Below the pieces are notes generated by a model. That model searched no databases, was not told the DNA's origin, and saw nothing but the letters and a program-made list of their open reading frames with translations. Shown here one piece after another: positions 3,711-40,645 of a DNA stretch of 64,000 nucleotides; the stretch's first letter is position 1, and every line of letters starts with the position of its first letter. Source of the stretch: a virus; the IMG/VR virus record IMGVR_UViG_3300035704_000396, positions 1-64,000 of that record; one strand, written 5' to 3'. A program made the position numbers and the translations under genes.

Positions 3711-4142
3711 TCAGGCCGCGAGGGTGGTCACCGGCCAGGGCACGGTGTCTCGCATCGAGGACGTCAGGAACGGGTTGGGTGGGATGCCTCGGACCTGCTT
3801 GGCGAATATCGGTGTGGAGCTGCCGTGTGGCGTCCACACCAGGTATTTCCCGTTGCGGGGCCGGATCGGGCCTCGGCCGGCGTACACGCCGGTGCCCTGG
3901 TGCACGTAGATGGCTTGTGGCGCCGAGGCGTAGAGGCGGCCGCGGACCACCAGGCCGCCCGAGGTGACGGTGAATCCGATGGAGGCACTCAGTTCGCCGG
4001 TGTCGACGGGGGCGCGGGTGCGGGCCAGGCTGGCGGCGCGCTGGCAGTAGTTGGTGACCCGTCGGGTCACCGGGCCGGCCGGTGACCCGAGCAGCCACCG
4101 AATGTTGGGCAGGTTGAGCCTGACCCTGGTGAATCCGATCAT
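3711..4142 (-). CDS. HK97-gp10-like tail-completion/minor virion protein
   Basis: 143 aa. The central pattern, RAPVDTGELSASIGF followed by a beta-rich stretch and HQGTGVYAGRGPIRP, then an aromatic/basic segment and PPNPFLTSSM, is the layout of HK97 gp10-type proteins that join the head-tail connector to the tail tube. ATG 4142 overlaps the upstream stop by 4 bp (ATGA) and has GGAGA upstream. It lies last in the operon after the lysis genes, an odd position because gp10 genes usually sit between connector and tail tube. Confidence 0.7.
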   Translation of the reverse strand: MIGFTRVRLNLPNIRWLLGSPAGPVTRRVTNYCQRAASLARTRAPVDTGELSASIGFTVTSGGLVVRGRLYASAPQAIYVHQGTGVYAGRGPIRPRNGKYLVWTPHGSSTPIFAKQVRGIPPNPFLTSSMRDTVPWPVTTLAA

Positions 4143-4396
4143 GGCAGTCTCCGGGGCGGTTGGTCGCGGTGTTCCAGCGGTGTCCAGCGGGGCACGGTGG
4201 CCAACTGGTCGGCCAGGTGTGGGCCCAGTTCGGTGTCGCCGCCGGCGGCATAGTGTTCTGCCAGGTCGACCATGGTTTGCACGGCGTCGCGGTGCGAGGG
4301 GTGGCTGGTCTCGTCGGCGGTCGGCCGGAACCCGAACGGCGGGCGGGTGATGGTCCATTGCCCGTCGCGTTTGGTGATCCTCGGCTTCCCGCGCAC
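4139..4396 (-). CDS. Hypothetical protein, 85 aa
   Basis: I chose the GTG at 4396, which has AGGAG 7 nt upstream and falls just after the preceding gene's stop; the longer frame would overlap that gene. Begins VRGKPRITKRDGQWTITRPP, then a helical C-terminus (DAVQTMVDLAEHYAAGG). The short Lys/Trp/Thr beta segment at the start is typical of small phage proteins. Function unknown. Confidence 0.6.
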   Translation of the reverse strand: MRGKPRITKRDGQWTITRPPFGFRPTADETSHPSHRDAVQTMVDLAEHYAAGGDTELGPHLADQLATVPRWTPLEHRDQPPRRLP

Positions 4397-4406
4397 CCGG
4401 CCGCTC

Positions 4407-4664
4407 CTATCGGCTGTCGCCGTCGCGGGCGACGGTGTGCGGGTGGTGGCGGCCGGTGTAGGGGTCGCGGACCACGACGGCGCCGGCGTAGTGGCGGCCG
4501 CAGCCGAACCATCTGGGCCGGCGCAGCTCAACCGCCAGGCACAGGCACAGTGTCAGGATGATGCCGAGGGCGGCCAGGGCGAGCTGGTGGCGGCCCAGCA
4601 GGCCGATCAGCATCAGGCTGGTGGCCACGGCCATGACCGTCACCACGGCGAGGCGGCCAGCCAT
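4407..4664 (-). CDS. Small membrane protein with two predicted spans
   Basis: 85 aa, hydrophobic segments at about residues 5-25 and 27-46, then a basic Cys/His-containing tail (RRPRWFGCGRHYAG). ATG 4664 overlaps the upstream stop as TGATG, so it is translationally coupled. Size and position in the lysis region fit an accessory holin or spanin-like role, but no signature proves it. Confidence 0.6.
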   Translation of the reverse strand: MAGRLAVVTVMAVATSLMLIGLLGRHQLALAALGIILTLCLCLAVELRRPRWFGCGRHYAGAVVVRDPYTGRHHPHTVARDGDSR

Positions 4665-6834: not shown

Positions 6835-7575
6835 TCACATCACCGGTTGGACGACGTCCCCGCCCAGATGCAGCAGCAGGTCGACCTGGTCCCAGGTGAA
6901 CGTGGCCGATCCGCCCACCGCCCAGGCGTCGCCCCACGAGTTGTCCATCTTCACCTTGCGGTTGGCCACGTCGATCGCCGAGCACACGAACTGGTGGCCC
7001 CCGGCCAGGCCGGAGTCCTGGTCGACGTCCATCGACCCGTCCGAGTTGGGGGTGAACATGGATTGGAACCAGGGCACCCCGAACGACACCGGGCCGGCGA
7101 CCAGCAGTTGCAGCATCGTGTTCAGGTCGGTGGTGTGCTGCCAGGAGGTGATCCACCCGTTGCGCTGCAACGCCATCATCGACCACGGCCCGGACGATCC
7201 GGTGTCGGTGGGCGGGTAGTGGCCGGGGATCTGCGAGTCGTCGATGCGGGTTTCGAGTTCGTACAGCGAGACGCAGGCCGGTTCGGTGAAGTTCCATCCG
7301 GTTCGGTGGTAGGGCTCGGTCATCAGCACGCCCAGCGCGCCGTTGGCGGTGCAGGAGCCGATCTTGCCCTGGTTCCAGATGGTGGTGAGCCGTTGGTGGG
7401 CGGCGTCGGCCAGTTCGGCGTCGCCGTCGCGTTGGGCGGCCAGTTCGGGCAGCAGCAGCTGGTGCATCTGGTGGCGGCCCAGCCGGAACGGGTTGGTCGG
7501 ATCTTCCAGCAGCACCCGGAACAGCGGGTTGCGCGGCGCCTCGGTGGCCTGCTCGGTCGTGTCGGTGGACATCAT
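6835..7575 (-). CDS. Papain-like (C1 family) cysteine protease
   Basis: 246 aa with all C1 catalytic residues in order: Gln69 and Cys75 in NQGKIGSCTANGA, His194 in AGGHQFVCSAID and Asn212 in MDNSWGDAW. It is shorter than classical papain proenzymes and has no obvious signal peptide or propeptide; residues 1-55 could act as a short pro-segment. Set among tail, lysis and lysin genes, likely roles are processing a virion protein or cutting peptide cross-links at entry or exit. Start ATG 7575 (or 7572) lies downstream of AGGAAGGG. Confidence 0.85.
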   Translation of the reverse strand: MMSTDTTEQATEAPRNPLFRVLLEDPTNPFRLGRHQMHQLLLPELAAQRDGDAELADAAHQRLTTIWNQGKIGSCTANGALGVLMTEPYHRTGWNFTEPACVSLYELETRIDDSQIPGHYPPTDTGSSGPWSMMALQRNGWITSWQHTTDLNTMLQLLVAGPVSFGVPWFQSMFTPNSDGSMDVDQDSGLAGGHQFVCSAIDVANRKVKMDNSWGDAWAVGGSATFTWDQVDLLLHLGGDVVQPVM

Positions 7576-9003: not shown

Positions 9004-9870
9004 TCACCGGCCCACCCCCGCCGGCGGCGGGCCGGCCCGGCCGCTCGAAGCGGGGGTGGGCACGGTGACCGTGGCGGTGGTGGTCGCCGAGTGGTCGCCG
9101 ATGTCGGTGAGGGTCACCGTGTAGGTGCCGGCCGCGGTGTAGGTGTGCTGCACCGGCAGCGGCACGACGGCCGTGTCCACCATGTTGGTGTCGCCCCAGT
9201 GCAGTGCGGCGCCGTAGGCGCCGAACCCGGCCGGGGTGACGGTGACCGTCATCGGGTCGCTGGTGGAGGGTTGCACCGTCAGGCTCAGCTGCAGCGGGCA
9301 GCAGTTGCCCCGCACCAGTTGCGCGGTCAGCACGGTGGCGGCGCAGCCGCCGTCCGGGCCGTCGTGGTGCAGGCTGACGATCTGCCAGTTGACGCCCTGT
9401 TGGCCCAGCGGGCCGCACAGAAACGCCCGGTGCAGCGCCATCGCGTCCTGCACCATGCCGAAGGCGTACCCGTCGACGGTGGCGACGTCCGGCGCGGCGG
9501 CGGTCGGGTCCAGGGTGGGGGCACAGCGGTGCACCCCCAACTCCACGGTCAACAACAATTCGCCGGTGTTGCAGTTGCTGGGCACCCGGTTCAGACCGGA
9601 CACCCCCAGCTCTGTGGTGGCATTGGTCATCCGCAGCCACGCCGAGCCCTGCCCGGCCGGCTGGGACGGGTCGTCCTCGCAGGTGCAGTCGCACCAGTCG
9701 GCCGGCATCGGGGTGTTGCCGGCGTAGATGACGAACACGCACACCGGCCGCTGGCTGATGCCCAGCTGGGCGGCGGCGGACAGCCGCAGCTGTTCCAGCA
9801 CGGGCCACAGCACCGGTTCGGTGTCGGCCATGGTGGGGGCGTCGGCCTGGTCGGGCGGGCCGGCGGTCAT
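9004..9870 (-). CDS. Neck/connector-type virion protein with C-terminal PKD-like domain
   Basis: 288 aa. The N-terminal part (about 1-205) has many Cys and short beta segments and resembles neck/connector proteins found beside this type of capsid gene in actinophages. The C-terminal part (about 207-275) reads as a PKD-like fold: an ALHWGD strand followed by VQHTYTAAGTYTVTLTD, ending in a Pro-rich tail. PKD domains are surface-exposed and often bind glycans or proteins. ATG 9870 overlaps the upstream gene by 4 bp. Confidence 0.65.
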   Translation of the reverse strand: MTAGPPDQADAPTMADTEPVLWPVLEQLRLSAAAQLGISQRPVCVFVIYAGNTPMPADWCDCTCEDDPSQPAGQGSAWLRMTNATTELGVSGLNRVPSNCNTGELLLTVELGVHRCAPTLDPTAAAPDVATVDGYAFGMVQDAMALHRAFLCGPLGQQGVNWQIVSLHHDGPDGGCAATVLTAQLVRGNCCPLQLSLTVQPSTSDPMTVTVTPAGFGAYGAALHWGDTNMVDTAVVPLPVQHTYTAAGTYTVTLTDIGDHSATTTATVTVPTPASSGRAGPPPAGVGR

Positions 9871-10856
9871 GGTGTGCTGTCCGGGGTGTAGACGCCGGTG
9901 GTGGCCACCGACACCGGGCCGGGCAGGTCCGGGGAGTAGACGGCGGCCGGCGAGCGGTGCCGGTAGGGGTTGGCCGCCACCACCCACAGGTCCACCTCGG
10001 TGATCCCCGTCCGCCCCTCGTCCAGGAAGGACTGCGGGTCGATCTGGTAGGACACGCCCTGCCGTTGGATTTCGGTGACCCGCGCGGTGATCCGGCAGGC
10101 GGCGCCGGTGCACGCGGCGACCAGTTCGGCGGCGAAGATGGCGGCGGCGCGGCGGCCGCCGGTGGGCACCGGGTGGCCCCGCCAGAAGCTGATGCCGAAC
10201 GTGCCCTCCTGCGACAGGGGCCGGTCCAGGTGTTGGCTGACCGGCCAGCGGCCGCCGTCGGTGCGGCCCAGCCGGTCGCCGTTGCCCAGCCACAGCAGCG
10301 TTTCGTCGACGGCCAGGCCGTCGACGGTGACGGTGATGCCGCAGCGGGGCATCCCGTCGGGGGCGGGCGGCGTGTCGGGTGGCTGCCAGAACACCGGGCC
10401 GGGCAGCGGCACCTGGGCGACCGGGCCGCAGCCGCACAGGTCCGGGTCGGGGTGGTGGCAGCCGATGCGCAGCCACGATTGGCCGCCGGGTAGCGCCGGG
10501 TTGAGGTCCAGGCCCGGCCGCCGGCCGTGGAACAGCCGCGGCGGCCGGCAGGGCCGCACCGTTTCCCGGCACAGCCCGTAGCGGCCGGCGGTCAGGCGCC
10601 ACAGGATCTCGGAGGCGGTTTCGGCGGCGGCGCATTGCACCGCGTTCCAGGTGGCCGGGTCGGCGGGCAGCTGCGAACAGCTGGCGTCCAACGGCCAGGT
10701 CCGGCACGGCCCGCCGGCGGCCGGGTCCAGCGCCCAGGTGCCGTCGGGTTGCAGATCCGGCCTGTTCGGCGCCGGGGTGTCGGTGCGCACCGACCCGGGC
10801 GGGGTGGTGGGCGTCGACGGGGTCCAGCCGGGTCGCCGCCCGGTGGGCCGGGTCAT
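9867..10856 (-). CDS. Head-to-tail adaptor-like virion protein
   Basis: 329 aa, Cys/Trp/Pro-rich. Landmarks include WPLDASCSQLP, then a helix with SEILWRLTAGRYGLCRETVRPC, the pattern of actinophage head-tail adaptor proteins that follow the major capsid gene, and a C-terminal part beginning IQRQGVSYQIDPQSFL. Overlaps both neighbours by 4 bp. It would attach the tail below the portal; the portal gene itself is not in this window. Confidence 0.65.
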   Translation of the reverse strand: MTRPTGRRPGWTPSTPTTPPGSVRTDTPAPNRPDLQPDGTWALDPAAGGPCRTWPLDASCSQLPADPATWNAVQCAAAETASEILWRLTAGRYGLCRETVRPCRPPRLFHGRRPGLDLNPALPGGQSWLRIGCHHPDPDLCGCGPVAQVPLPGPVFWQPPDTPPAPDGMPRCGITVTVDGLAVDETLLWLGNGDRLGRTDGGRWPVSQHLDRPLSQEGTFGISFWRGHPVPTGGRRAAAIFAAELVAACTGAACRITARVTEIQRQGVSYQIDPQSFLDEGRTGITEVDLWVVAANPYRHRSPAAVYSPDLPGPVSVATTGVYTPDSTP

Positions 10857-12034
10857 CCGGTGCGGCGCCGGCCGCCGCCCTTGCCGCCGGTGTCGCCGCC
10901 CGGTTTGGCACCGCCGCTCGGGCCGGCCGGGCTGGCCTCGGAGCTGCTGTCGGCGGCCGTGTCGGCGGCCGTGTCCGGTTGTTCCAGGCCGGACGCGGCC
11001 GGGGTGAACGTGGTGGACACCGGCGTCGCCCCGTTGCCCGGGGTGAACGTGATGGTCTGTTCGATGCCGGCCTGGTCGGCGGCGTAGGCGTGGCTGGCGA
11101 CGCCGACGGTGGCGGCCAGCATCGCCGCGATCGTGCCGTCACCCCAGTCGACGGTGCCCGCATTGCCCACCAGGGCGAAGTTGGACACGGTCAGGGTGGC
11201 CGAGAGGGTGTCGCCGACGGTGGGTGCGGCCGCGAGCTGCGGCGCGGTCGCGCTGGGGTTCCACAGCGGCCGGCCGCCGCAGGTGGTCACGGGCGGGGCG
11301 ACGGTGACCAGTTCGCCGTGGAAGTGGTCCGGGTCCGAGGAGACCAGGTCGATGGCCGGCCAGTCGAAGCCGGGGTCGATCGGGTCCAGCAGCGGCGCGG
11401 GCATGCCGTCGATGTCGCGGGTCACGTTGTAGGGGCCGTGTCCCCACAGGCTGCCCGGCTTGGTCTTGCCTTTGAGCTTGAAGCTCATCGGATTGTTTTC
11501 CACGGTCAGGCTGTCCATGCCCAGGGCGATGCAGTAGGGCAGCAGGAAGTAGCCGCACACCTGGAAGGTGGGGTCGTTGGGGTCGCCGGTCAGGCACGCC
11601 TGCCCGGCGCCGGGCCCGGTCACCTTGGGCCACAGTTCCAGGGCGTAGCCCAACGTGTTGGACACCTGCTGGCCGATGCGGAACCCGGTGGCGGTGCGCC
11701 GGGAGGCGTCGGTGACCGTCTTCCAGGTCCGGTTGAGCATCACGTACAGCGCCGGATCCACCTGGCAGAACTCGAAGTTCAACGCGATGTACTTCACGTT
11801 GTCCGGGCCGCGGTCGTTGATGCACAGCTCACCGGCGGCGTTCTTGGCGCTGTAGTCGTCGCCGTCCTCCACCTCCGGTGCCAGCTCCACCGACACGAAC
11901 CCCGACGACACCACCTGGCTGTTGGGGCCGTATACGGGTCGCCCGCAGGCGTCGACCAGGGTGGCGCGCATCCGGCTGGCGCCGATGTAACCGGCACACA
12001 GGGCGGCGGGCACGGGCAGCGTGGGAGCGGTCAT
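10853..12034 (-). CDS. Major tail-tube-like protein with C-terminal PKD-like domain
   Basis: 393 aa. The N-terminal two-thirds (about 1-265) look like a tail-tube protein: an early CGRPVYGPNSQVVSSGFVSV segment, YIALNFEFCQVDPALY, and repeated beta strands. Residues about 268-355 form a PKD-like module (TVDWGDGTIA, then strands), followed by a disordered Ala/Gly/Asp tail. A tube protein with a C-terminal immunoglobulin-like decoration is a known design. ATG 12034 overlaps the upstream stop (TGATG). Confidence 0.65.
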   Translation of the reverse strand: MTAPTLPVPAALCAGYIGASRMRATLVDACGRPVYGPNSQVVSSGFVSVELAPEVEDGDDYSAKNAAGELCINDRGPDNVKYIALNFEFCQVDPALYVMLNRTWKTVTDASRRTATGFRIGQQVSNTLGYALELWPKVTGPGAGQACLTGDPNDPTFQVCGYFLLPYCIALGMDSLTVENNPMSFKLKGKTKPGSLWGHGPYNVTRDIDGMPAPLLDPIDPGFDWPAIDLVSSDPDHFHGELVTVAPPVTTCGGRPLWNPSATAPQLAAAPTVGDTLSATLTVSNFALVGNAGTVDWGDGTIAAMLAATVGVASHAYAADQAGIEQTITFTPGNGATPVSTTFTPAASGLEQPDTAADTAADSSSEASPAGPSGGAKPGGDTGGKGGGRRRTG

Positions 12035-12981
12035 CAGATCTCCTCGGCCGGGTCGGTGGCGCCGATGTGGCCGGGGGGGGCGCCCCGACCGGCGACATCG
12101 GCTGTGATGGGGGTTTGGTTCAGGGCGGCCACGAACCCGGGCCGTGTCAGCGTGGTTTTGGCGGCCGCGGTGCCGCCGGCCCAGTCGGCGACGTAGAGCC
12201 GCTCGGACAGCAGGGAACCCAGGTTCTGGCTGCGGTCGAACGCGCCGCTGGCCCATTCGCCCGGTTCGATGATCGGTCCACGGCGGACGGTGACCTGGCC
12301 GGTGGCGTACAGCCATAGCGCGCCGTCGTCGGGGTCGGTGACCGAGGTGGGCGGCGTGGCCGGGTAGCCGGCGCCGAACACCCACGTCGACCCGAGCAGG
12401 GTGGAGGCGGTGGGGCCGGCGACGAACACCTGCCGCTGCTCGCGCAGCCGGGGCGCTGACCACAGCGGGGCGTGCAGCACACCCACGCAGCCGGTGTCGG
12501 CCAGCCACTGTTCGAGTTGGCCGACCGCGTCGACCAGCTCCAGGGCGGCGCCGCCGGCCACCACGTCGGCGGCGGCCAGGTTGGGCTGGTTGCCCAGCAA
12601 CCCGGTGAACACCACCTGTTCGACCGCGGTTTCCTCGCCGGCGGTGAACCGCTGCCGCAGCTGGCGGCGGGCCACCAGTGGGTCGCGGCCCAGGACACAC
12701 CGGTCGGCCGCATACACCGCGAACGGGGTGCCGGTGACCGTGCTGGTGGTCTGCTGCGCCAGTTTCTGGCCGTCGGGCAGACCGTCGGGCACGGTCGGTT
12801 CACACGAGGCCGGCCAGGGCGCCACCGCCGCCGAGGTGACCGCCTCGTATTCGACGCCCAGCAGGGCGTGCGGTTCGACGTTTTCCAGCAGCGCGGCGGC
12901 GACGAACAGGCCGAACCGGTGCGGGCCGGCAGCAGGTGGGCTGTCGACCAGCATCCGGGGCGCCGCCACCGGCACGGACAT
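12034..12981 (-). CDS. Virion protein next to the capsid gene, function unknown
   Basis: 315 aa. It has the look of the conserved gene found directly after this capsid family in actinophages: early RMLVD and LFVAAALLENVEPHALLGVEYE, a central GTPFAVYAADRCVLG and a helix RRQLRQRFTAGEETAVEQV. Probably a capsid-associated or decoration protein. ATG 12981 has only a weak ribosome site (AAGGCG). Confidence 0.6.
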   Translation of the reverse strand: MSVPVAAPRMLVDSPPAAGPHRFGLFVAAALLENVEPHALLGVEYEAVTSAAVAPWPASCEPTVPDGLPDGQKLAQQTTSTVTGTPFAVYAADRCVLGRDPLVARRQLRQRFTAGEETAVEQVVFTGLLGNQPNLAAADVVAGGAALELVDAVGQLEQWLADTGCVGVLHAPLWSAPRLREQRQVFVAGPTASTLLGSTWVFGAGYPATPPTSVTDPDDGALWLYATGQVTVRRGPIIEPGEWASGAFDRSQNLGSLLSERLYVADWAGGTAAAKTTLTRPGFVAALNQTPITADVAGRGAPPGHIGATDPAEEI

Positions 12982-12993
12982 CGGCGTGGCGCC

Positions 12994-15297
12994 TTACTTG
13001 CCGCGGCGGTTGGTCGGCCTGGTCGTGGCCGCCTTGGCCGGCCCGCCGCCGTCACCGTCGCCGCCGTCGTTGCCCGTCTGCGCGTCGGCGTCCGCGGCGG
13101 CGTCGCCGCTGTCGACGCGGTCGCCGGTGGCCGGGTCGTCGGCCGGGGTGGGTGACACGACGATGTTGCGCGTGGAATCGGCTGTCTCACCGGTGTTGCC
13201 GCTGCTGATGTTGACCAGGCCGGCGGTGGGCGGCGGGCAGATGTCGCGGGCCGGGCCGACCGCGCCGTTGGTGCACAGGTCGGTCAACTGCACGAGGAAC
13301 GTCCGGTTGCACCGGTTGATCAACATCCAGGCGTCTTCGGTGAACGAGCTGCTGTACTTGTTCTCCTGCAGCAGCTGCGCGTCGTACTGCACGCCCAGGG
13401 TGAGCACGTTGCCCTGCGAGAGCACCCACGATCCTGCCGGGTAGGCCATGATGTTGACGGTGGTGGGCCATCCGGCGGGCGGCATGATCCGCCCACCCAC
13501 GGCGGCGCCGTCACCCAGTTCCTGCCAGTCACGCACCCACTGCACCCGCGAGCTGTACTGGGCGAACAGGGCGGCGACCTCGGCGTCGGCCACCGCGCCG
13601 AAGGGCCTGTTCCGCTTGAGCTCCAGGTCCCGCTTGACGAAGTCCTTGAACCACTCCGGAAGCACGACCTCCAACGTGGCGTTGGGCGCCATCTTGTAGC
13701 GGTTGCGGAACCACACGAGCAGCAGCCGCAGCCGGTCCACCGCCTCCACTGCCACCGACCCGGTCGCCGTGTCCGCTCCCGACACCGAGAACGCCGGCAG
13801 CACATCGGAGTTGGCCCCGATGTAGGCCAGGTAGGTCGAGTTCATGAAGTGGTTGTGGTGCACCAGCACGTCGGAGGCGAACCGTTCCTGGCCTTCCGGG
13901 AACGTGCGGTCGCGCAGGATGTCCGACTCGATGGACAGGTAGGCCAGGCTGGCGCGGACTTCCCGCCACGTCACACACGGCCCGGTGATCGACATCTTGA
14001 CGTTGCCCAGGCCGTCCCCGGGCGGGGTGTCGTCCGCGGCGTGGTGGAAGTAGGTCGGGTTGTCCAGGCCCGCGCCGGGGCTGGCCGGCGCGGCCGGGTA
14101 GGTGATGGCGGTGCCGTGCCAGCCGTTGCGGGTGGCGTCGGCGGACTGGTCGGGGTATTGCGTCCACTGTGGAAACCGGATGCCGCCGCGGGCGGGCATG
14201 CCGGTGGTGGGCAGGTCCAGCATGCCGTCGTCGGTGGCCATCGGCGGACACAACGTGTAGTCCGTCTCCGAGGGGGTGCACCACACGTCGTTGATGGTCG
14301 AGGGCGCCGTGTCGGCCGCGGTCAACGCGCGCTGCACGGCCGCCACCAGCGACCCGCCGGGCAGCCGCCGCTCGTCGGCCACGTCGTCCAGGGTGCGGAT
14401 GTCCCGGTTGTCGCCCATCAGCCGCCGATCCTCGGCGAAATGCCGGGTGATGCGGGCGACGTTGGCTTTGATCGGCGCCGACGCGGCCTGCCCGACGGGC
14501 AGCGCGGCGAACCGGGCGCAGGCGGCCTCGCCCAGCTCCCGCACCGTCAACTGCTGCCCGAACGTGAAATCGGTGTTCTCGGCCGATGCGGTGATCGAGT
14601 AGGACCGGGTGATCCGTGCCGGCGCCGGGTCGGCGGGCGGCGCACCCCGGCCGGACGCGACCGCGGCGGCGGTCGGGGTGCGCCGCGGCACAGGCGGCGG
14701 GGGCGCCGAGGCGGCCACCGGCAGCACGTCAGTGGCCGGCTCGGCGGTCTGTGGTGGGTCCACGGTCGGGGCGGCGGGGGCATCGCCGCCCCGAGCCGTG
14801 GACTGCGAACCTGGTGCCGGCTCGGCGCGCTGCGCGGCTGCGCCGGCCCCACCAGGTCCCTCGGCCGGGTGTGGGGTCGCCTCGGGAAGCCCGTCGGGAG
14901 CCACCTGGCCGGCTTCCCTGGCGCCCTGACCGCCGGGCTGTTGGCCCTCGCCGGCCGGGTCCTGGACGGGTTCGGCCGGCGACTGGACGCGGTCTGCCAG
15001 GGCCGAGACCCGCTGGTCCCTCTCCACCCGTTCCTGATCCCGCTCCAGCTTCAGCCGGCGCACTGCCTCCGTGACGTCGGCGAGTGCCTCCAGCGTGTCC
15101 GCGTCGGCGGGGCGGTAGTCGCCGTCGGCGTAGAGCTCGTTGAACCGCTCGACGGCGCCACCGTCCAGTTCGGCCAGGTCCACGTCGGGACCGGCCGCCT
15201 CGACCAGCGCTGTGTAGACGGCTGCGACCCGCTGTTCACCGGGCGGCGGCGCGTCCTTGGCGGTGGCAATGCCGAGCAGCTTCTTGAGCAGATCCAC
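12994..15297 (-). CDS. HK97-type major capsid protein with long N-terminal region
   Basis: 767 aa from GTG 15297, which has GGGAGG upstream. Residues about 1-230 are charged and Pro/Ala-rich with a coiled-coil stretch (LEALADVTEAVRRLKLE), the layout of a fused scaffolding (delta) domain that the capsid protease removes. The core (about 235-700) contains NDVWCTPSETDYTLCPPM and MPARGGIRFPQW, landmarks of an actinophage capsid family, then typical E-loop and A-domain segments. The C-terminus is an acidic then basic tail. It follows the MuF/protease gene, as expected for an HK97-type head module. Confidence 0.85.
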   Translation of the reverse strand: MDLLKKLLGIATAKDAPPPGEQRVAAVYTALVEAAGPDVDLAELDGGAVERFNELYADGDYRPADADTLEALADVTEAVRRLKLERDQERVERDQRVSALADRVQSPAEPVQDPAGEGQQPGGQGAREAGQVAPDGLPEATPHPAEGPGGAGAAAQRAEPAPGSQSTARGGDAPAAPTVDPPQTAEPATDVLPVAASAPPPPVPRRTPTAAAVASGRGAPPADPAPARITRSYSITASAENTDFTFGQQLTVRELGEAACARFAALPVGQAASAPIKANVARITRHFAEDRRLMGDNRDIRTLDDVADERRLPGGSLVAAVQRALTAADTAPSTINDVWCTPSETDYTLCPPMATDDGMLDLPTTGMPARGGIRFPQWTQYPDQSADATRNGWHGTAITYPAAPASPGAGLDNPTYFHHAADDTPPGDGLGNVKMSITGPCVTWREVRASLAYLSIESDILRDRTFPEGQERFASDVLVHHNHFMNSTYLAYIGANSDVLPAFSVSGADTATGSVAVEAVDRLRLLLVWFRNRYKMAPNATLEVVLPEWFKDFVKRDLELKRNRPFGAVADAEVAALFAQYSSRVQWVRDWQELGDGAAVGGRIMPPAGWPTTVNIMAYPAGSWVLSQGNVLTLGVQYDAQLLQENKYSSSFTEDAWMLINRCNRTFLVQLTDLCTNGAVGPARDICPPPTAGLVNISSGNTGETADSTRNIVVSPTPADDPATGDRVDSGDAAADADAQTGNDGGDGDGGGPAKAATTRPTNRRGK

Positions 15298-15464
15298 CGT
15301 GGGCCTCCCAGACGCACACAGGAACGAGTGTGTGCATCCGGTCACGGTCGCCAGGCGATGCGAAAAGGCTGTCACCGACCCGCTGCGGGGTTGGGTTGCC
15401 TCGTCGCGGAGGATAGCCGCGACCCCCGCACCGGGCGAATCACCCCAGGTCTGACGCGCCGGGT

Positions 15465-15734: not shown

Positions 15735-15738
15735 GTCC

Positions 15739-27732: not shown

Positions 27733-27747
27733 AAGGAGGCCCATCCC

Positions 27748-28314: not shown

Positions 28315-28320
28315 CCTGCC

Positions 28321-29940: not shown

Positions 29941-32142
29941 GTGACCGACATCGACACCGATCCCGCCGCCGACACCGGCTCTGAGTTTGAAGTCGAGTGG
30001 CCGCCGTACTCGGGCGTACCCGCGTTCGACCCGGACGCCGACGAGTTCGCAGTGGACCCACCGGGGGAGAAGCCGTGGCGGGAGCACGTCGTCCGGCAGG
30101 CCATGCCGATCTCGGTGGCGGCGCTGCTGTGGGCGGCCGCCGAATCCGCCTACCTGGCACCGGAGACGTGGCCGGTGGGCGCTCCGGTCGCGGCCGGCGT
30201 GTATTTCGTAGCCGCCATCGGTATGTGGTCGGCGTGGGCGCGTAACAACCCGGCCAACCGGAAAGCGCGCCGCCGGTGGGCCTGCACTGTCATCGGCGCC
30301 GGCGGGGGGTGGCTGCTGTGGGCCGCGTCGTTCGGTGCCGGCCACGTTGCCACGATGTTGCTGGCCGTCGGTGGGGGTGCGCTGGCGCTGCCCTTCTGGG
30401 TGCGCAACGCCCTGTGGACCAACCCGCGGCGACCGGCCGAGCGTGAGCCTGAGCCGGTCGAGGACGACACATATGGGGACGAGGCGGTAGTCCCGGAGAC
30501 CCCCGCCGTTGAGGTGGCGGCACCGGAACTGGACACCAATCAGCTGCTGTGGCAGCAGATGGTCGGCAGCCGTGACGGCCTGCTGCCCGGATCGGCGCTG
30601 CTGGATCCGAAGTGCTCGGAGATGTTCGACGAGTATCTGGCCCAGCTGGACAACCGCAAACACACCTCGGAGTCGGCGTTCGCCGTGCGCCGCCGGATCG
30701 CCGCGTTGTGGGGCATGCCGCTGGCCTCCGTGTCGGTTCTGCCGCACCCGATGGGTTTCGAGGACAAGGTGCTGGTTCGGTTTTCGCGGACCAACCCGTT
30801 GCAGGCCGCCAAGCCGTACCCGGGGCCGCAGCTGGCCATCGACCTGACCGGCGGCAACATCCGTGCGCTGATCGGCTACCGGGCCGACGGCTCCCCGGTG
30901 TGGTGGACGTTGTTCGAGGCCGGCTGGGGCATGCGCGGGGGCGCCGTGTTCGGCGACACCGGGTCAGGCAAGTCGGTGTTGCTGCGCAGCCTGATCACCT
31001 CGTTCGCCTACACAGGGCTGGTCATGCCGGTGGTGGGCTGCCCGCAGGGCGGCGGCTCGTACCCGATGTGGATCAAACATGCCCCGTGGCCGGCGCCCAG
31101 CGGCGACGAGATCCTCCACCAGGCGCGTGGCCTGCTGGCCGCGCACCGCCGCCGGTCGGCCATCAACAGGCTGCTGCGCCGAGACCTTCACGTCCCGACC
31201 CGCGACGCGCCACTGTTGCCGTGGATCGTGGACGAGCTCCACAAGATGCGGGAGCACCCGGCTCAAGACGAGTTCTACGCGATCGTCGACATCGTGGAGC
31301 GCGAGGGTCGCAAAACCGGCATCCGCATGGTCATCGCCGACCAGGACCCGTCGGTGCCCAACACGTTCAACAACCTCAACTCCATCCGGTCGTCGTTGAT
31401 CGGCGCCGGCGGGCAGTGCGTGATCTTGCGGATCTCCAAGAACGTCGGCGCCCAGTTGCCCGGCGGCCTGGTGGACCCGCGGACCATCCCGACCAAATTC
31501 CCGGACGGCACGCCCACGACTGGCCTGGCCGTTCTGAACGGCGAACCGGAACTGTTCCGGGTGGCCAACCTGCTCGACGCCGACGCGCTTGCCGCGGCCG
31601 CACCCACGTTGGAGCCAGAGCCGGCCATCGTCGGTGTCATGGGCGATCACTACGGCAAGCGGCACACCCGGCGGGCCGAGGAAGACGGGCAGCTGGCCGT
31701 GCAGATCGCCCAGGACGACCCCGAGCTGTATGCGCAGCTGGTAGGGAACGACCCGGTCCTGGCGGCCGCCGCCCAGGCCGCCGCCGAGGCCGCCCGGCAG
31801 GCCGCGTATGCCGCCCAGGCCGAGCAGGTCGAGCAGGTCGACGGCCCGTCCGCCGGTGGTCGGGCGGTGGTGACCCGCGTGCCGGTCCCACCGGTGCCGG
31901 CGATAAGGCGGATCACGTGGACCTGCGAGCAGCGGGTGCTGCAGGTGGTGCGCCGCGGTGTCACCAAGTTCGGCGACATCAAAGCCGAGGCGACCAAGCC
32001 GGACCGCTCCGAATATTCCGAGACGGCGCTGCGCGATGCCATCGCCAGCCTGGCCAAACAGGGCCTGGTCGATGCCAGCCAGTGGGGACGTGTGTTGCCC
32101 GTGGACCCTTCCGGACCGGCTGAGGGGAAGCGGACGGCATGA
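29941..32142 (+). CDS. FtsK/TraB-type conjugative DNA translocase
   Basis: 733 aa from GTG 29941, with GGGAGG upstream and the leader motif at 29911-29919. Membrane spans in about 55-150; a pre-ATPase region (185-290; LLPGSALLDPKC, GMPLASVSVLPHPMGFEDK); Walker A GDTGSGKS (338-345), Walker B LLPWIVDELHK (about 425-434); C-terminal winged helix (about 660-715; ETALRDAIASLAKQGLVDA). This is the layout of actinomycete TraB, which moves double-stranded plasmid DNA between hyphae after its wing binds repeated octamers. It overlaps the lytic transglycosylase gene by 4 bp. Confidence 0.9.
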   Translation: MTDIDTDPAADTGSEFEVEWPPYSGVPAFDPDADEFAVDPPGEKPWREHVVRQAMPISVAALLWAAAESAYLAPETWPVGAPVAAGVYFVAAIGMWSAWARNNPANRKARRRWACTVIGAGGGWLLWAASFGAGHVATMLLAVGGGALALPFWVRNALWTNPRRPAEREPEPVEDDTYGDEAVVPETPAVEVAAPELDTNQLLWQQMVGSRDGLLPGSALLDPKCSEMFDEYLAQLDNRKHTSESAFAVRRRIAALWGMPLASVSVLPHPMGFEDKVLVRFSRTNPLQAAKPYPGPQLAIDLTGGNIRALIGYRADGSPVWWTLFEAGWGMRGGAVFGDTGSGKSVLLRSLITSFAYTGLVMPVVGCPQGGGSYPMWIKHAPWPAPSGDEILHQARGLLAAHRRRSAINRLLRRDLHVPTRDAPLLPWIVDELHKMREHPAQDEFYAIVDIVEREGRKTGIRMVIADQDPSVPNTFNNLNSIRSSLIGAGGQCVILRISKNVGAQLPGGLVDPRTIPTKFPDGTPTTGLAVLNGEPELFRVANLLDADALAAAAPTLEPEPAIVGVMGDHYGKRHTRRAEEDGQLAVQIAQDDPELYAQLVGNDPVLAAAAQAAAEAARQAAYAAQAEQVEQVDGPSAGGRAVVTRVPVPPVPAIRRITWTCEQRVLQVVRRGVTKFGDIKAEATKPDRSEYSETALRDAIASLAKQGLVDASQWGRVLPVDPSGPAEGKRTA

Positions 32143-32882
32143 AGCCTCTCGCCGGTCCCCGCGCGGTTGCGGCTGTGCCACCACCGCCACCGCCGGTCGT
32201 GGCCGCGCCGCACCGACCGGCCGACCCTGGCCGGGTGCACCGGCCGGGCCGGCCCGGGCCGCCCGCTGGCCGGCATGCCACCGGCCGGCATGCCACCACC
32301 GCTCGCCCGGTGCACCCGGCCAGGGTCTCCGCACATCCCGCGCCCCGGCGGCCAGCCCGCTCACGCGCCGGCGGCCGGGCCGGGGGAGCGGGGTCGTCGT
32401 CGCAGTGGCGGCCACCGATGTGGCTGATCATCGTGCTGATCGTCGCCGGGTTCGGCGGCGCCGGCGGTGTCGCGGTCGCTGCCAGCACATTGGGCGCCCC
32501 GCCGGCCGGGCAACCGGCCCCACCGGCCCAGGTGCAGACGTGGATCGCGCAGGCCAACCAGATCCTGCTCGCCCACGGCACCCCCGCCGGCGACCTGGAC
32601 CCGGCCGACCAGTGGCTGATCATCCGGCACGAATCGGGCGGCAACCCCTTGGCCGAGAACCGCTCCGACTCCAACTTCGTGGCCGGCCACCCCTCGAAAG
32701 GGATCATGCAGACCATCGACTCCACGTTCCGGGCCAACGCGTTGCCCGGACATGAGGACATCTGGATGCCGGTCGACAACATCATCGCCGGTTCGTTGTA
32801 TGCGATCCGCCGCTACGGCTCGATCCGGAACGTGCCCGGCGTGGTCGCCGTGCATGAAGGCCGCCCCTACGTCGGCTACTGA
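32139..32882 (+). CDS. Membrane-anchored lytic transglycosylase (SLT-like)
   Basis: 247 aa. Residues 1-90 are Pro/His/Arg-rich and cytoplasmic, span at about 93-114, then an extracellular SLT-like domain: catalytic Glu in IRHESGGNPL (about 164), SKGIMQTIDSTF and DNIIAGSLYAIRRYGSI. It would locally open peptidoglycan for DNA transfer. Translationally coupled to the TraB-type gene (ATGA). Confidence 0.85.
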   Translation: MKPLAGPRAVAAVPPPPPPVVAAPHRPADPGRVHRPGRPGPPAGRHATGRHATTARPVHPARVSAHPAPRRPARSRAGGRAGGAGSSSQWRPPMWLIIVLIVAGFGGAGGVAVAASTLGAPPAGQPAPPAQVQTWIAQANQILLAHGTPAGDLDPADQWLIIRHESGGNPLAENRSDSNFVAGHPSKGIMQTIDSTFRANALPGHEDIWMPVDNIIAGSLYAIRRYGSIRNVPGVVAVHEGRPYVGY

Positions 32883-32932: not shown

Positions 32933-33621
32933 ATGCTCACACGCCACCTGCTCGACGTTCCTGAGTCGTTGCAGATCGCCTGGCCGTACCCGGGCCCGGA
33001 CAACGCCCTCGACCTGTGGAACCGCGGCTACGTCCGCGGCCACATCGGTTACCGGGCCGACGGCTCCCCGGTGTGGTGGACGTTCTACGACGGGTTGAGC
33101 TGGGGCTCCGCCCGGTGGTCAGCGAGCCGGTGTATGGCGACATCGACCCGATCATCCGTCAGGCGCGGGACCTGCTCGCCGAGCACCGACGCCGGCAGGA
33201 CGCGAACAAGCGGCTGCGCCGCAGGCTGCTGACGCCGGACCGTGACACGCCGCTGCTGCTGTGGATCGTCGACGACATCCACCAGATACCCGGCTCCTGG
33301 CGGGACGAGTTCTTCTCGATCGCCGTCACCCTGAACCGGGAGGGTTACAGGACCGGGATCAGCCTGGTCGTCTCCACTGTGGACCCCAGCTTGCCCATGT
33401 CGTTCGGCGGCTCCGCGGACCTGCGGGCGTCGCTGGTCAGGGCGCAGTGCGTGTGGCTGCGCATGGACGTCCGTTCCCACCTGGCCGAGTCCGGTGGTCG
33501 GGTAGACCCGACCACCATCCCGCCCCGGTTCTCCGACGGCATGCCCACGTCCGGCGTGGGTGTGGTGCCGGGCGAGCCGCACCTGTTCCGCGTCGCCTAC
33601 CTGCCCGACGACGGCATGTGA
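32933..33621 (+). pseudogene. Decayed TraB paralogue lacking Walker A
   Basis: From ATG 32933 (leader motif 32910-32918, GGGAG upstream) the frame matches TraB residues about 270-320 (YPGPDNALDLW, then GHIGYRADGSPVWWT). Near 33110 homology jumps to another frame and resumes at PVVSEP, then IIRQARDLLAEHRRR, LLLWIVDDIH and on to LFRVAYLPDDGM. Compared with the intact gene about 30 residues holding Walker A are missing exactly at the frame switch. Either a disabled copy or, less likely, a product made by frameshifting. Confidence 0.75.
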
Positions 33622-33685
33622 CCACCGCCGGCGGCACCCCAGCCTGCGCCGGCGTCTTTCCACCAACTACTCGAGGAGAACCCCC

Positions 33686-34306
33686 ATGCGTGCGATGCCG
33701 CGTGCGACTCGGCAGCGCTGGCAGGAGGCGTCCACCCTGCGCGAGCTCGGGGAGCTGACCGCGCTGTGGCTGGAAGGCAAACTCGACTCCCAGCCCGGAT
33801 ATGTACCCCGCGTCGGCCCGGACAAGGAAACCACCGAACTGGTGGCCGTCCTGGCCCGACTCAACCGGATCGGCTACCTGACCGACAGCTCCCAGCCCGG
33901 TTGGGGACCAGCCCCGGCTACGACGGTGCGATCTGGTGCCAACGCGCCGCGGTGAGCGGCTTCGCCCCCGCCGGCTTGGCCGACGCCATCGCGCAGGCCG
34001 CGACGAAGGTCGGGATGCTGGTCAGCGCCGCCAATGTGCGAGGCGCACGTCGGCTTGGCCGGTTCCGCGATCCCGACGCCATCACCGTCACCACCCGCGC
34101 AGACAGGCCCTACACCGCGTTCGGCGGCAGCCGCACCGCCAGCGACCCTGGCGTTGAGCTACGACGAATGCTGCGACGCCGTGTGCGCCGCGGTGCAGCT
34201 CGCCGTCGTCGATCCCGAATGGGGCGAGCGCGACGCCCTGTGGTCCTTGCTGGACAGCTTCGTCGCCCATGCCGCCCGCCGAACCACGGCGGCGAGGTCA
34301 CGGTGA
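33686..34306 (+). pseudogene. DUF6919-like gene with two frameshifts
   Basis: ATG 33686 has GAGGAG upstream and a degenerate leader motif (TCCACCAAC). Homology runs through three stretches: 33686 to about 33905 (LRELGELTALWLEGKLDSQPG), then another frame to about 34140 (GYDGAIWCQRAAVSGFA), then back to the first frame until 34306 (AVVDPEWGERDALWSLLDSF). The first switch is at GGTTGGGGA. Joined, it makes a DUF6919-like protein of actinomycete type, function unknown. Biological decay or sequencing indels are both possible. Confidence 0.65.
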
Positions 34307-34356
34307 CCGACCCACTGGGTCGGGTGTCATTTCCCACCACCACTGAAGGAGAACCC

Positions 34357-34830
34357 ATGCACGACGTGCAACAGCAGCAGCAGTTGGATCAGGAGGCCCG
34401 GACCACATGGGCCGCGTTGTTGGGCGCCCGGCTCGGCGCGTTGCCGGGGACGGCGTTGTTGGGGCGTCAGGTCCGCGAGGCGTACACGGACTTCACGCTG
34501 GAACTGGTGCCGGGCATGCAGACGGTGGAGACGGTGGCCGCGGCGCGGCAGCTGATCGCCACGGCCTACGGGTGGCCGCTGACCCACGTGGTGGTCCTGC
34601 CGCACCCGCACCCGGCCCGCCAGGCGAGTTGGGCGCTGGTCCGGTTCGTCAGGACCGACTCGCAGCGTGTGGTCGCCCGCCGGCGCCACGGCGGGCTGCG
34701 TGGCCGTGCCGTCCAGGAAGGCGACAGCGGCACCGTGCTGGGCTGTCGCGGCAGCCGGCTGTTCGTCGCGTGGGACCACGCCGGGCAGGCCGTGGAGTCG
34801 CGGGACGACTATGTCGGGACGCTGGCGTGA
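34357..34830 (+). CDS. Stand-alone copy of the TraB pre-ATPase domain
   Basis: 157 aa from ATG 34357, with GAAGGAG and a perfect leader motif (34333-34341). Residues about 22-100 (GALPGTALLGRQV, then TAYGWPLTHVVVLPHPHPAR, ALVRFVRTDS) align with TraB residues about 193-270. No ATPase part follows; the C-terminus is a small Gly/Arg-rich beta region. May modulate TraB oligomers or be a remnant. Overlaps the lipoprotein gene by 4 bp. Confidence 0.65.
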   Translation: MHDVQQQQQLDQEARTTWAALLGARLGALPGTALLGRQVREAYTDFTLELVPGMQTVETVAAARQLIATAYGWPLTHVVVLPHPHPARQASWALVRFVRTDSQRVVARRRHGGLRGRAVQEGDSGTVLGCRGSRLFVAWDHAGQAVESRDDYVGTLA

Positions 34831-37646: not shown

Positions 37647-38525
37647 GTGCAGTTGGTGCTCACCCCGAGCGTGGCCCGCAGGCTGCTGGGCTACAGCCTG
37701 CGCCGCTACCGGCTGATGGCCGGCAAAACCCAGGAGCAAGCCGCGGAGCGGGTCGACATCAAACAGGGCTCGCTGGCCGGTTTCGAGACCGCTCGTGCCG
37801 CGCCCGGCCAGCCGGTGCTGGAGCTGCTGCTGGACTTCTACGGGCGCGGATCGGCGTTCCCGCAGATGGCGGTGGTGCGCCGGATCGCCGCCCAGACCCA
37901 CCGCGACGACCAGCAGCAGGCCGTGCAACGCACCGACCTGGTCGACTTCGACCTGTACCGGGGCCTGGAGTGGTTCGCCCGGCGGATCGAGGCGTACGAA
38001 CCGGCGCTGGTGCACGGCTTGCTGCAGACCGAGGCCACGGCCCGCGCGGTGCTGGAAGACCACGCCCGGCACACCGGCGGCGTGGACGTCGACGCCGCCC
38101 TGCGGGAACGGCTCGACCGACAAGGCGTCCTGTACCGGGACGAATCCGACGATCTACCATCACCGTGTCTGCGGCTCTACATCGAGGCGGACCGGCTGCG
38201 CCGGCCCGTGGTCGACCGGCAGTCGCAGGCCGAGCAGCTTGACCACCTGGCGACGGCGATGGCCCGGACCAACGTGGAGGTCCGGGTCATCCCCGACGAG
38301 GTGGCCATCCACCCGGCCCAGCGGGGCACCGCCACCCTGCTGGACATGGGCGACTGGCAGGTCGGCTACGCCGAGACGTGGCAGACCGCCTCCTACTACG
38401 ACCACCCGGAGGCGATCGGCGCACTGACCCGGATCATGGCCCACCTGCAGGCCGTCAGCCTCGGCCCAGAGGACTCGCTGGCGTACATCGTCAGCACAGC
38501 CAACCAACTACGCGGGGGGAGGTGA
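37647..38525 (+). CDS. XRE-family regulator with DUF5753 domain
   Basis: 292 aa from GTG 37647 with GGGAGC 6 nt upstream; upstream in-frame starts exist but lack ribosome sites. Helix-turn-helix at about 10-65 (YRLMAGKTQEQAAERVDIKQGSLAGFE), then DUF5753 (about 105-285; FARRIEAYEPALVHGLLQTEATARAVL, VEVRVIPDEVAIHPAQ). Followed 4 bp later by a DUF397 gene, the standard actinomycete pair. Probably binds the ACCAATACCC sites. Confidence 0.9.
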   Translation: MQLVLTPSVARRLLGYSLRRYRLMAGKTQEQAAERVDIKQGSLAGFETARAAPGQPVLELLLDFYGRGSAFPQMAVVRRIAAQTHRDDQQQAVQRTDLVDFDLYRGLEWFARRIEAYEPALVHGLLQTEATARAVLEDHARHTGGVDVDAALRERLDRQGVLYRDESDDLPSPCLRLYIEADRLRRPVVDRQSQAEQLDHLATAMARTNVEVRVIPDEVAIHPAQRGTATLLDMGDWQVGYAETWQTASYYDHPEAIGALTRIMAHLQAVSLGPEDSLAYIVSTANQLRGGR

Positions 38526-38529
38526 ACAC

Positions 38530-38721
38530 ATGAGGATCACGTGGAGGACGTCGAGCTACACCTCCGGCGGTGGCCAGTGCGTGGAGATGGGCTGGGACGC
38601 CGGCAAGCTGGCCGTCCGCGACACCAAGCAGGCCGGCGGACACCAGCCGGTGATGCTGGTGACCGGCCCGACCGGCCAGGCATTCCTGGCCGCGGCGAAA
38701 GCCGGTCGACTGGACCGGTAG
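38530..38721 (+). CDS. DUF397 protein, partner of the XRE regulator
   Basis: 63 aa: WRTSSYTSGGGQCVEMGW, then VAVRDTK-like LAVRDTKQ and a short helix (GQAFLAAAKAGRLD), the complete DUF397 layout. ATG 38530 has GGGGGAGG upstream. DUF397 proteins act with the neighbouring XRE/DUF5753 regulator, in some cases as a small antagonist. Confidence 0.9.
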   Translation: MRITWRTSSYTSGGGQCVEMGWDAGKLAVRDTKQAGGHQPVMLVTGPTGQAFLAAAKAGRLDR

Positions 38722-38779: not shown

Positions 38780-38828
38780 GCAGCCATGTCCGTGACCTGG
38801 CCGCCCGGCGCCGGGTCGAGGTACAACC

Positions 38829-38892
38829 AATACCCGCCCTCCATCAATGAGCCGCTGAGACGTCCCGTATCGGTTGGTCGGGGGTATTGGGT
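38829..38892. promoter_or_regulatory. Second inverted pair of the ACCAATACCC element
   Basis: ACCAATACCCGCC (about 38829-38841) and GGGGGTATTGGGT (about 38880-38892) face each other. The same element forms the divergent operator at 37490-37545. Its right half lies inside the 3' end of the replication-type gene. Confidence 0.5.
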
Positions 38893-39935
38893 TCGGGGAC
38901 CCCGGTTCGTCCGCCTGTGGACCTGTCAGGCCCCGAAACCGGCCTCCTGGCGGGCGTGGTGCACCTGCCCCTGGCCCGAGCGGGTGCCTCGGTGAGCGCC
39001 CTGGCCTTGGCCTCGAAGGCCACCAGGGTGGCGGCCCGGCCGTACGCCTGGATGTGGGTCAGCCGCGGAAACTGCTCGGAGATGACCTTCGCCAGGTCGT
39101 CGGCGCTGATCAGCGGGTTGTCGTCGATGGCGGCGCATGCCTGCGTGCCGGCCTTGTCGCGCGCACGTACGCGTAGTGGGTCACCTACAGACTCACCTTC
39201 CGTAGAAACCACCTGAGCAGCGTTAGCGGGTGGTTTCGTTCCAGCCGCGTCAGCGGCTGGGTCCGGGGGGTTCGAGGGGGGCGGGCCCCCCTGGACTGTT
39301 TCAAGGTCCAGTTTCGTAGAGGACTGTTTTGGGGGTCTAACAGTCCCCCCTGCTGGGACTATTAGTCCCCCCTCGTCGGGACTATTAGTCCCCCCTGGGG
39401 CGGGTTGGGCCGCCGGTTCGGCAGGGGGGACTGTTAGACCCCCCTGCGACTCGAACAGGTCCGGCGTCAGGGGCTGTGAGCTGTCGCTTTCCTCTGCCTT
39501 GGGTGGCCGGGAGACGCCCTTGTCGGCGCGCGGCTTGCGTCCCGTGCGGGCCGGCTCGGCCAGTGGCGGACGCATCTGGGCCGTCAACGGCGGGAGGCCC
39601 CGTTCGGCGCGGTCGCGGTTGACCTCGTCGACCTGGCTCGCGGAGTACCAGTCGAACGGGATCATCAGGTCGTAGACCTTCGGCCGGTATCGCTTCGGAA
39701 TGCTCCGGGCCAGCCGCTGATCGCCCAGCTTGATGACCTTGCGGCGCAGCATCGCGGCCAGGCGCCGCTCGATGGTCTTCTCGTCGCATAGCGCGTACTC
39801 GGCCATCGACCGAATCGAGGGATACGCTCCCGTGCCGTCCGAGCGGGCGCGGTGCGCCATCTGCGTGCTGATCGCCCGCTCGTACACGTCGGCCACGGGC
39901 GCCGCCTCGGCCCACGCGATCGCCAGGAAGCTCAT
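38844..39935 (-). CDS. Replication-initiator-like helix-turn-helix protein with internal iterons
   Basis: 363 aa. N-terminal 120 residues carry a winged-helix-type domain (YPSIRSMAEYALCDEKTIERRLAAMLRRKVIKLG, written here as the region about 39-72) of the kind found in phage and plasmid replication proteins. The middle is Pro/Gly-rich and its DNA holds four iterons (39331-39445). The C-terminus has a helical domain (ISADDLAKVISEQFPRLTHI) and a basic tail. An initiator with origin repeats inside its own gene is the lambda O arrangement. ATG 39935 overlaps the upstream stop by 4 bp. Confidence 0.65.
   Translation of the reverse strand: MSFLAIAWAEAAPVADVYERAISTQMAHRARSDGTGAYPSIRSMAEYALCDEKTIERRLAAMLRRKVIKLGDQRLARSIPKRYRPKVYDLMIPFDWYSASQVDEVNRDRAERGLPPLTAQMRPPLAEPARTGRKPRADKGVSRPPKAEESDSSQPLTPDLFESQGGLTVPPAEPAAQPAPGGTNSPDEGGLIVPAGGTVRPPKQSSTKLDLETVQGGPPPSNPPDPAADAAGTKPPANAAQVVSTEGESVGDPLRVRARDKAGTQACAAIDDNPLISADDLAKVISEQFPRLTHIQAYGRAATLVAFEAKARALTEAPARARGRCTTPARRPVSGPDRSTGGRTGVPEPNTPDQPIRDVSAAH
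39331..39396. repeat. Three tandem iterons, about 22-23 bp period
   Basis: GGGGGTCTAACAGTCCCCCC (39331-39350), GGGACTATTAGTCCCCCCT (39355-39373) and the identical unit at 39378-39396. Copies 2 and 3 contain the perfect palindrome GGGACTATTAGTCCC. A fourth, inverted copy lies at 39423-39445. The helical phasing (about two turns) is typical of initiator-binding iterons. Confidence 0.75.
39423..39445. repeat. Inverted fourth iteron
   Basis: Complement of AGGGGGGTCTAACAGTCCC plus four further bases; matches the first iteron at 39331-39350 in opposite orientation. Confidence 0.7.
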
Positions 39936-40645
39936 CGCTCGGCCGCTGTCGTGCGCAGTTCGGCCACGGCTGCCGACACTGCGGCAACCGGGTCGGCCTG
40001 GTCGAAGTCGAACCACTCACCCGTGGTGCGCTGTAGCCCGAACTTACGGTGCAGCGTGCGTTCTAGGCGGATTCCTCCCTCGGTCTGCCACAGCAGCCGC
40101 AGCGTCATACCTGAGCCGGTCTGCAACTGGGCGAGCCTCCGTTCCGGATGCTCAGACACCCCGATCTTGACCAGCCCGCGTTCGCCACCGATGACGTACA
40201 CGAACGTCGACCGCGCCGGTGGTTGCAGACGTAGCGCAGCCTGCGACCGATCATCTGTCCTGGTCAGCACGCCCTGCTTCTCCAGCACGGCCAGCGCGTC
40301 GTTCAGCGCGGTGCCTCCCATGGACTTGCCGTTCACGCCCGGCACCAGGTACATCAACTGGTCGTTGGACAGGTCCGGCACAGTGCCGTCGGGTCCGCAC
40401 AGCGAGGCCAAGATGGCGTAAACCCGGAACGCGGTGTGCGGGATCTCCGGATGCAGTGCGATCCATTGCATGACACGCGCGAAGTGGAAGCCGACGTCGT
40501 CGGCGTCGAGGATCGGGCTGGGCGTGGTCTCATCGACGCTGCCGTCCGCGTCGCCGGCCCCCTCGACGTCACGGTCGGACGTCTGCTCCAGCAGCTCGTC
40601 GTCGACGTCGTGCTCGGCTTGCGCGGCCGATGGATTCTGATCCAC
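39932..40645 (-). CDS. Helix-turn-helix protein with GIY-YIG-like (T5orf172/MUG113) domain
   Basis: 237 aa from GTG 40645, GGGAAGG upstream. Acidic residues 1-50; a winged-helix region (about 65-140; HTAFRVYAILASLCGPDG, DQLMYLVPG); then about 148-235: FVYVIGGERGLVKIGVSEHPERRLAQLQTG, given as region 148-177, followed by RLERTLHRKFGLQRTTGEWFDF. The latter is the T5orf172/MUG113 branch of GIY-YIG, whose first strand here reads VYVI and whose Lys-Ile-Gly follows. Role could be nicking or DNA binding at replication. Upstream of the initiator-like gene and coupled to it. Confidence 0.75.
   Translation of the reverse strand: MDQNPSAAQAEHDVDDELLEQTSDRDVEGAGDADGSVDETTPSPILDADDVGFHFARVMQWIALHPEIPHTAFRVYAILASLCGPDGTVPDLSNDQLMYLVPGVNGKSMGGTALNDALAVLEKQGVLTRTDDRSQAALRLQPPARSTFVYVIGGERGLVKIGVSEHPERRLAQLQTGSGMTLRLLWQTEGGIRLERTLHRKFGLQRTTGEWFDFDQADPVAAVSAAVAELRTTAAER

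Follow-up and report, generated by a model that had tools for sequence, protein, structure and literature searches.

In actinobacteria a single FtsK-like protein is enough for the conjugation of double-stranded DNA (PMC3218068). A passage of PMC3583192 calls the Streptomyces plasmid-phage pZL12 conjugative, and P1-like phage-plasmids are known to have become conjugally transferable plasmids through loss of phage genes and gain of conjugation functions (PMC10879196). pZL12 (NC_013420, 90,435 bp, circular) combines ParA and ParB, an FtsK-type transfer gene with an adjacent membrane protein gene, and phage head and tail genes on one extrachromosomal element. On pCQ4 of Streptomyces sp. W75 (NC_019307, 84,833 bp, circular) the annotation has traA-traB and then, starting within ~3 kb, terminase, portal, capsid and tail genes. 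The element described here is the IMG/VR virus record IMGVR_UViG_3300035704_000396, which is 70,650 bp long and classed as linear; its bases 1-64,000 form the window that was analyzed, and the final 6.65 kb were read too. All of its modules (head, partition, transfer and replication) sit in this one record. With moderate confidence, the element is read as a par-stabilized TraB-type plasmid that derives from a phage-plasmid and has lost the packaging function.

The initial annotation of the window had placed a capsid module and a TraB-type system on a single element, which holds for the 70,650-bp record, and had regarded this combination as the unusual part. The latter view is not sustained. 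Actinobacterial elements that join a capsid with a TraB-type pump had been described before and recur, as pZL12, pCQ4, plasmid unnamed3 of S. atratus NBC_00043 and the IMG/VR records G008 and G031 show. pZL12 differs from the present element in its capsid lineage, its complete terminase and tail genes, an integrase/recombinase gene, and a pump that is only distantly related to the one encoded here by g41. pCQ4 has an initiator homolog, a tape-measure-sized gene and an annotated TraB that the g41-family profile recovers as a homolog (57 bits, filters off), but its capsid family is a different one and its packaging genes are complete. The S. atratus plasmid (NZ_CP108279, 99,171 bp, circular) carries the capsid family of g23, the major capsid protein of this element, in the order DUF2637 - hypothetical - FtsK - terminase - ParB - DUF1360 - portal - MuF - capsid, and its FtsK has an FtsK-gamma domain; unlike here, portal and terminase are intact, ParA is absent from the stretch read, and ParB and FtsK belong to other subfamilies. 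Of the 32 IMG/VR capsid records that were searched, two, G008 and G031, have pumps recognized by the g41-family profile (37 and 55 bits). An FtsK-like match on Rhodococcus plas-2 was rejected as a further TraB case, as it is a 432-amino acid (aa) AAA ATPase. This element contributes one more pairing of pump and capsid, together with the deletion in the portal gene.

Other relatives share a part of the element. The closest plasmid-borne capsid with a long major capsid protein (788 aa) is that of Streptomyces violaceusniger pSTRVI02 (NC_015952, 191 kb, circular), which also carries homologs of g03, g08, g20-g23, g25-g27, g36 and g66; its portal is full-length, however, and an FtsK pump was not found. 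The closest capsid relatives are the IMG/VR records G002 (L025) and G001 (L024), with colinear head genes; they differ in the full 653-aa portal of L025, the terminase of G001 and an FtsK pump not being found. Gordonia phage Ligma (Sourvirus) has the same head and neck gene order and the capsid hexamer and pentamer proteins, but is a 61.7-kb phage with terminase, portal and tape measure and with no annotated tra or parA. Nocardia farcinica pNF2 and 41-kb plasmids share ParA (70%), ParB (54%) and an identical parS palindrome, whereas they are MOBP relaxase plasmids with no annotated capsid genes.

Open reading frames (ORFs) were called by codon usage, which gave 109, and nearly all of the longer ones were scanned against Pfam and PHROGs, or against NCBIfam. 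No integrase was found among the scanned ORFs, as the initial annotation had stated, and the flanking chromosome with attachment sites that it had named as contrary evidence did not appear, no chromosomal flank being found in the 70.65 kb. Third-position GC is uniform across the record (0.89-0.92). No end overlap or end repeats were found in the 70,650 bp, and the replicon is therefore probably incomplete, the record probably being much of it and not the whole. ORFs at the record ends read open across the junction, but several frames do so, which makes this a weak sign of circularity.

The portal gene is truncated in this assembly. The 136-aa ORF g26 (18,505-18,915, minus strand) matches a portal profile with E = 2.4e-22 (75 bits) and retains the C-terminal ~110 residues only. 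The profile, a hidden Markov model built from the portals of nine relatives, was run on six frames of the 70.65 kb, and g26 was its sole match, aligned to the portal C-terminus. In L025, L063, L060, L033 and L086 the portal is a single ORF of 600-658 aa just ahead of MuF, and it comes after DUF1360 wherever DUF1360 was recognized; the portal ORF of L025 (4,766-6,727) is flanked by DUF1360 and MuF. Here, ~17 bp separate the DUF1360 gene g27 from the stub, which has its own in-frame ATG with GGAG upstream. The simplest reading is an apparently in-frame deletion of the portal core. In the portal of pSTRVI02 (L006:13394-15919) an insertion of ~155 residues (349-504), which begins with Cys and is missing in related portals, looks like an intein.

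A terminase profile gave no match on the 70.65 kb (best E 0.68) and recovered the pCQ4 terminase at 3e-181. The only ORFs longer than 510 aa in the record encode the major capsid protein, MuF, FtsK and a helicase; with all of these accounted for, there is no tape-measure candidate. PHROGs tape-measure matches were read as reflecting the SLT domain of g42, the matched family member being unnamed, and were rejected. A tblastn search with the packaging, tail and lysis genes of relatives returned only g15, which resembles pZL12 gp46 (match at 6.8-7.4 kb), the portal stub, and one weak terminase match (E 0.019) that is probably due to chance. The virion set of portal, terminase and tape measure is incomplete in the 70.65 kb, and the record may be partial. 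The initial annotation had pointed to sequence outside the window as the place to look for these three genes; they were not found in the extra 6.65 kb, and the portal lies inside the window as the C-terminal stub. The suggestion that the element could move by particle is weakened by the truncation of the portal in place and by the terminase and tape measure not found.

Apart from the portal, the Sourvirus-like order DUF1360 - portal - MuF - hexamer - pentamer - major tail - adaptor is kept with homology. On the minus strand, from 19.3 down to 9.0 kb, the genes encode the DUF1360/phrog_781 protein, the portal remnant, the MuF/protease protein, a small ORF, hexamer, pentamer, major tail protein, adaptor and a phrog_810 protein, and an HK97-gp10-like gene follows the head genes further along at 3.7 kb. 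The HK97-type capsid, protease and connector module of the initial annotation was recovered by PHROGs and Pfam as the head genes at 9,004-18,360 and the HK97-gp10-like gene at 3,711-4,142. All of the following are on the minus strand. g27 (18,932-19,312), whose relatives lie upstream of the portal, matches phrog_781 (3e-18), L025 (47%) and the S. atratus DUF1360 protein (2e-10). g25 (15,739-18,360) encodes an 873-aa MuF head protein/capsid maturation protease (PF04233, 9e-13), a homolog of Ligma gp9. g23 (12,994-15,297) encodes the 767-aa major capsid (hexamer) protein (phrog_777, 1e-81; 40% to L024 over residues 1-687), and g22 (12,034-12,981) a pentamer-type capsid protein (phrog_779, 2e-50), a homolog of Ligma gp12, the 'major capsid pentamer protein'. 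The major tail protein g21 (10,853-12,034; phrog_792, 2e-60; 48% to L025) and the head-tail adaptor g20 (9,867-10,790; phrog_783, 2e-59) follow. The capsid family of g23 was found in 826 phage records and on seven PLSDB plasmids of 59-191 kb. Single-protein IMG/VR searches with the capsid or the pump returned no close relative, and alignments were required instead; for the head module as a whole, L024 and L025 come nearest, with 37-40% identity over most of the capsid protein.

Further along, g19 (9,004-9,870) encodes a neck or head-associated protein (phrog_810, 2e-9) with a C-terminal PKD/Ig-like domain (PKD_4, 1e-4). This domain is repeated more than eight times in L024:13024-17014, as would be expected of a decoration domain that is shuffled. 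g15 (6,835-7,575) encodes a peptidase-like protein (phrog_16701, 5e-27) homologous to gp46 in the tail/lysis region of pZL12 (tblastn, 1e-17). g08 (3,711-4,142) encodes the HK97-gp10-like tail-completion protein, with a colinear L025 homolog (46%, 108 bits), a pSTRVI02 homolog and a weak match to PF04883.

The partition system is of the Nocardia-plasmid type. parB (g29, 20,387-21,295, minus strand; HTH_ParB, 1e-8) is 53.5% identical to ParB of N. farcinica pNF2, and parA (g30, 21,364-22,128, minus strand; CbiA/MipZ) is 69.6% identical to a Nocardia plasmid ParA. Three copies of a palindrome with the core TGGAAAGNNNCTTTCCA (22,210-22,312) lie upstream of parA in an array at 22,207-22,316, where 0.03 would be expected on average by shuffling, and no further copy occurs in the window. 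The same palindrome lies 36 bp upstream of parA in the N. farcinica plasmids; the canonical chromosomal parS has no occurrence. This conservation supports the prediction that the three palindromes are parS. Homologous ParA and ParB and a matching parS beside parA were all found, and the parAB genes with parS-like sites of the initial annotation are retained. ParA, ParB and the palindrome, shared with the N. farcinica plasmids, indicate a Nocardia-like host.

The transfer block lies on the plus strand and is headed by g35 (24,937-25,557), a WhiB-like regulator (PF02467, 1.6e-22); a WhiB gene precedes the tra genes in a Kitasatospora plasmid too. g36 (25,603-26,793) encodes a DUF2637/Spd-like membrane protein with four hydrophobic segments, related to proteins of Pseudonocardia p1 (51%), pSTRVI02 (1e-20) and pZL12 (gp73, 8e-4), with further relatives on mycobacterial plasmids. 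The accessory genes g38-g40 (27,541-29,841) encode membrane proteins with hydrophobic segments and match the Kitasatospora tra operons in order and size; g39 and g40 had no NCBIfam match. g41 (29,941-32,142) encodes the TraB-type FtsK/HerA DNA translocase, a membrane-anchored motor with N-terminal transmembrane segments, Walker A (GDTGSGKS) and Walker B (DE). It is ~30% identical to Kitasatospora and Streptomyces plasmid proteins from similar operons, which comprise WhiB, membrane proteins, FtsK and a short FtsK-like gene. In a Foldseek search with its AlphaFold model the first PDB matches included EccC, FtsK motor domains (motor-dsDNA) and the TcpA coupling protein; the model is of low confidence (predicted local distance difference test score 44), at the C-terminus as well, so these fold matches support the family and do not prove it. 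The FtsK/TraB transfer operon of the initial annotation is borne out by g41 and its accessory genes. The nearest relatives of g41 are annotated as (winged) helix-turn-helix proteins, a C-terminal winged helix being the clt-repeat binder in TraB systems. Repeats of CCGCTACCG at 26,956-26,984 are a weak candidate for the clt site, which is expected as short direct repeats near traB.

Downstream of the pump, g42 (32,139-32,882, read from its longer start) encodes a transglycosylase (SLT) protein (PF01464, 2.6e-8); it is 59% identical to a N. farcinica protein, which again indicates a Nocardia-like host. The short partial FtsK-like paralogs g43 (33,115-33,621) and g46 (34,357-34,830) lie around small ORFs (33,115-34,830) and resemble separate domains of TraB-type pumps. 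Their interpretation as a decayed second pump was set aside, as a short FtsK-like gene follows traB in the Kitasatospora operons too. Regulator sets lie around the transfer region at 22,605-24,243 (DUF5753/HTH_31 and DUF6879) and 37,647-38,721 (DUF5753/HTH_31 and DUF397).

Both the initiator and the iterons of the initial annotation are present, but the initiator is the gene at 38,844-39,935 on the minus strand, whereas 39,932-40,645, directly upstream, encodes a GIY-YIG/MUG113 protein. Over its N-terminal half, the latter shows 48% identity to a protein from an Amycolatopsis plasmid. The 363-aa initiator-like helix-turn-helix protein has a homolog on pCQ4 and is 51-53% identical to a protein of Pseudonocardia sp. 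DSM 110487 p1 over the first ~200 residues. Within its gene, at 39,331-39,447, lie four palindromes of GGGACTATTAGTCCC (39,333-39,441; 8 matches seen on both strands, 0.43 expected by shuffling). The p1 initiator gene has an analogous GGGTCTACTAGACCC array at the equivalent internal site. The repeats of both arrays are 15-bp palindromes, and their sequences differ. Because the arrays occupy an equal internal place in both genes, there is good evidence for a predicted replication origin inside the initiator gene.

Two genes elsewhere in the record were also noted. A GmrSD_C/HNH-like gene at 47,624-48,292 is 42% and 44% identical to its counterparts on pSTRVI02 and Pseudonocardia p1. Just beyond the window, a DpdA-like gene (G000:C1:68761-69558, L003:8761-9558; PF23859, 3.7e-58) suggests 7-deazaguanine modification of the element's DNA.

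The element is probably a low-copy actinobacterial plasmid with a likely Nocardia or Pseudonocardiales host, descended from a phage-plasmid. It would replicate from the iterons inside its own initiator gene, segregate by the Nocardia-plasmid-type parABS and move from cell to cell as double-stranded DNA through a predicted hexameric TraB/FtsK pump. Packaging by the Sourvirus-like head module, and with it presumably particle production, appears to have been lost through the apparently in-frame portal deletion, terminase and tape measure not being found in the record; the unseen remainder of the replicon would then not restore the virion. Plasmid replication and partition genes lie with phage structural genes on one molecule, as in a phage-plasmid; since the virion set is not complete and the record is possibly partial, the element is classed as a phage-plasmid derivative and not as a functional phage-plasmid. 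Plasmid-like spread is more likely than virus-like spread because the portal gene is reduced to a stub. Spread by particles is unlikely, unless the contig does not reach the missing genes or misassembly produced the stub.

Several points weigh against a loss of packaging. Being linear, the record is probably not the whole replicon, and terminase and tail genes could be located outside it. The other head genes still form intact ORFs, and their strong codon bias is unlike the outcome of long decay. The portal deletion rests on one assembly. Finally, the terminase profile gives no more than a marginal match (E 2e-4) on pSTRVI02, although this 191-kb plasmid is complete and has a full portal; without a convincing terminase there, the lack of a profile match counts for less in this clade.

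The most probable alternative, although it is unlikely, is that the conjugative phage-plasmid is intact, as pZL12 and pCQ4 are, with portal, terminase and tail genes on the missing part and with both particle and mating routes working. The linear record without end repeats, the terminase, portal and tail genes of complete relatives, and the location of the G001 terminase ~9 kb away from the portal all agree with it. It requires a relocated second portal, however, as the usual portal position between DUF1360 and MuF holds only the truncated gene, 17 bp from g27. It is improbable that metagenome assembly created the portal deletion or wrongly fused the plasmid and phage blocks. The record comes from a virus collection, but its composition is uniform and the in-frame ATG of the stub with GGAG upstream fits a real in-frame deletion. 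An origin of capsid and transfer blocks from different molecules, which the initial annotation had named as evidence against a single replicon, is also disfavored by the circular S. atratus unnamed3, where ParB likewise lies near DUF1360-portal-MuF. Least probable is a conjugative plasmid that keeps the head and neck set for a use other than packaging its own genome, as a portal-less DNA-free shell or a satellite-like head served by the portal, terminase and tail of a helper phage: the portal is cleanly cut and the ORFs for hexamer, pentamer, MuF, major tail and adaptor remain intact, but a compartment would not need tail and neck proteins, neither a cargo gene nor a gene for satellite packaging was identified, and a second element with the same portal deletion was not found.

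The element joins pZL12, pCQ4, S. atratus unnamed3 and two IMG/VR records in showing that a phage head module and a TraB-type double-stranded DNA pump recur together across actinobacteria, although the capsids are unrelated and the pumps belong to different subfamilies. It looks caught between virus-like and plasmid-like spread, and the transition from phage-plasmid to conjugative plasmid, known for P1-like elements, would become directly testable in actinobacteria.

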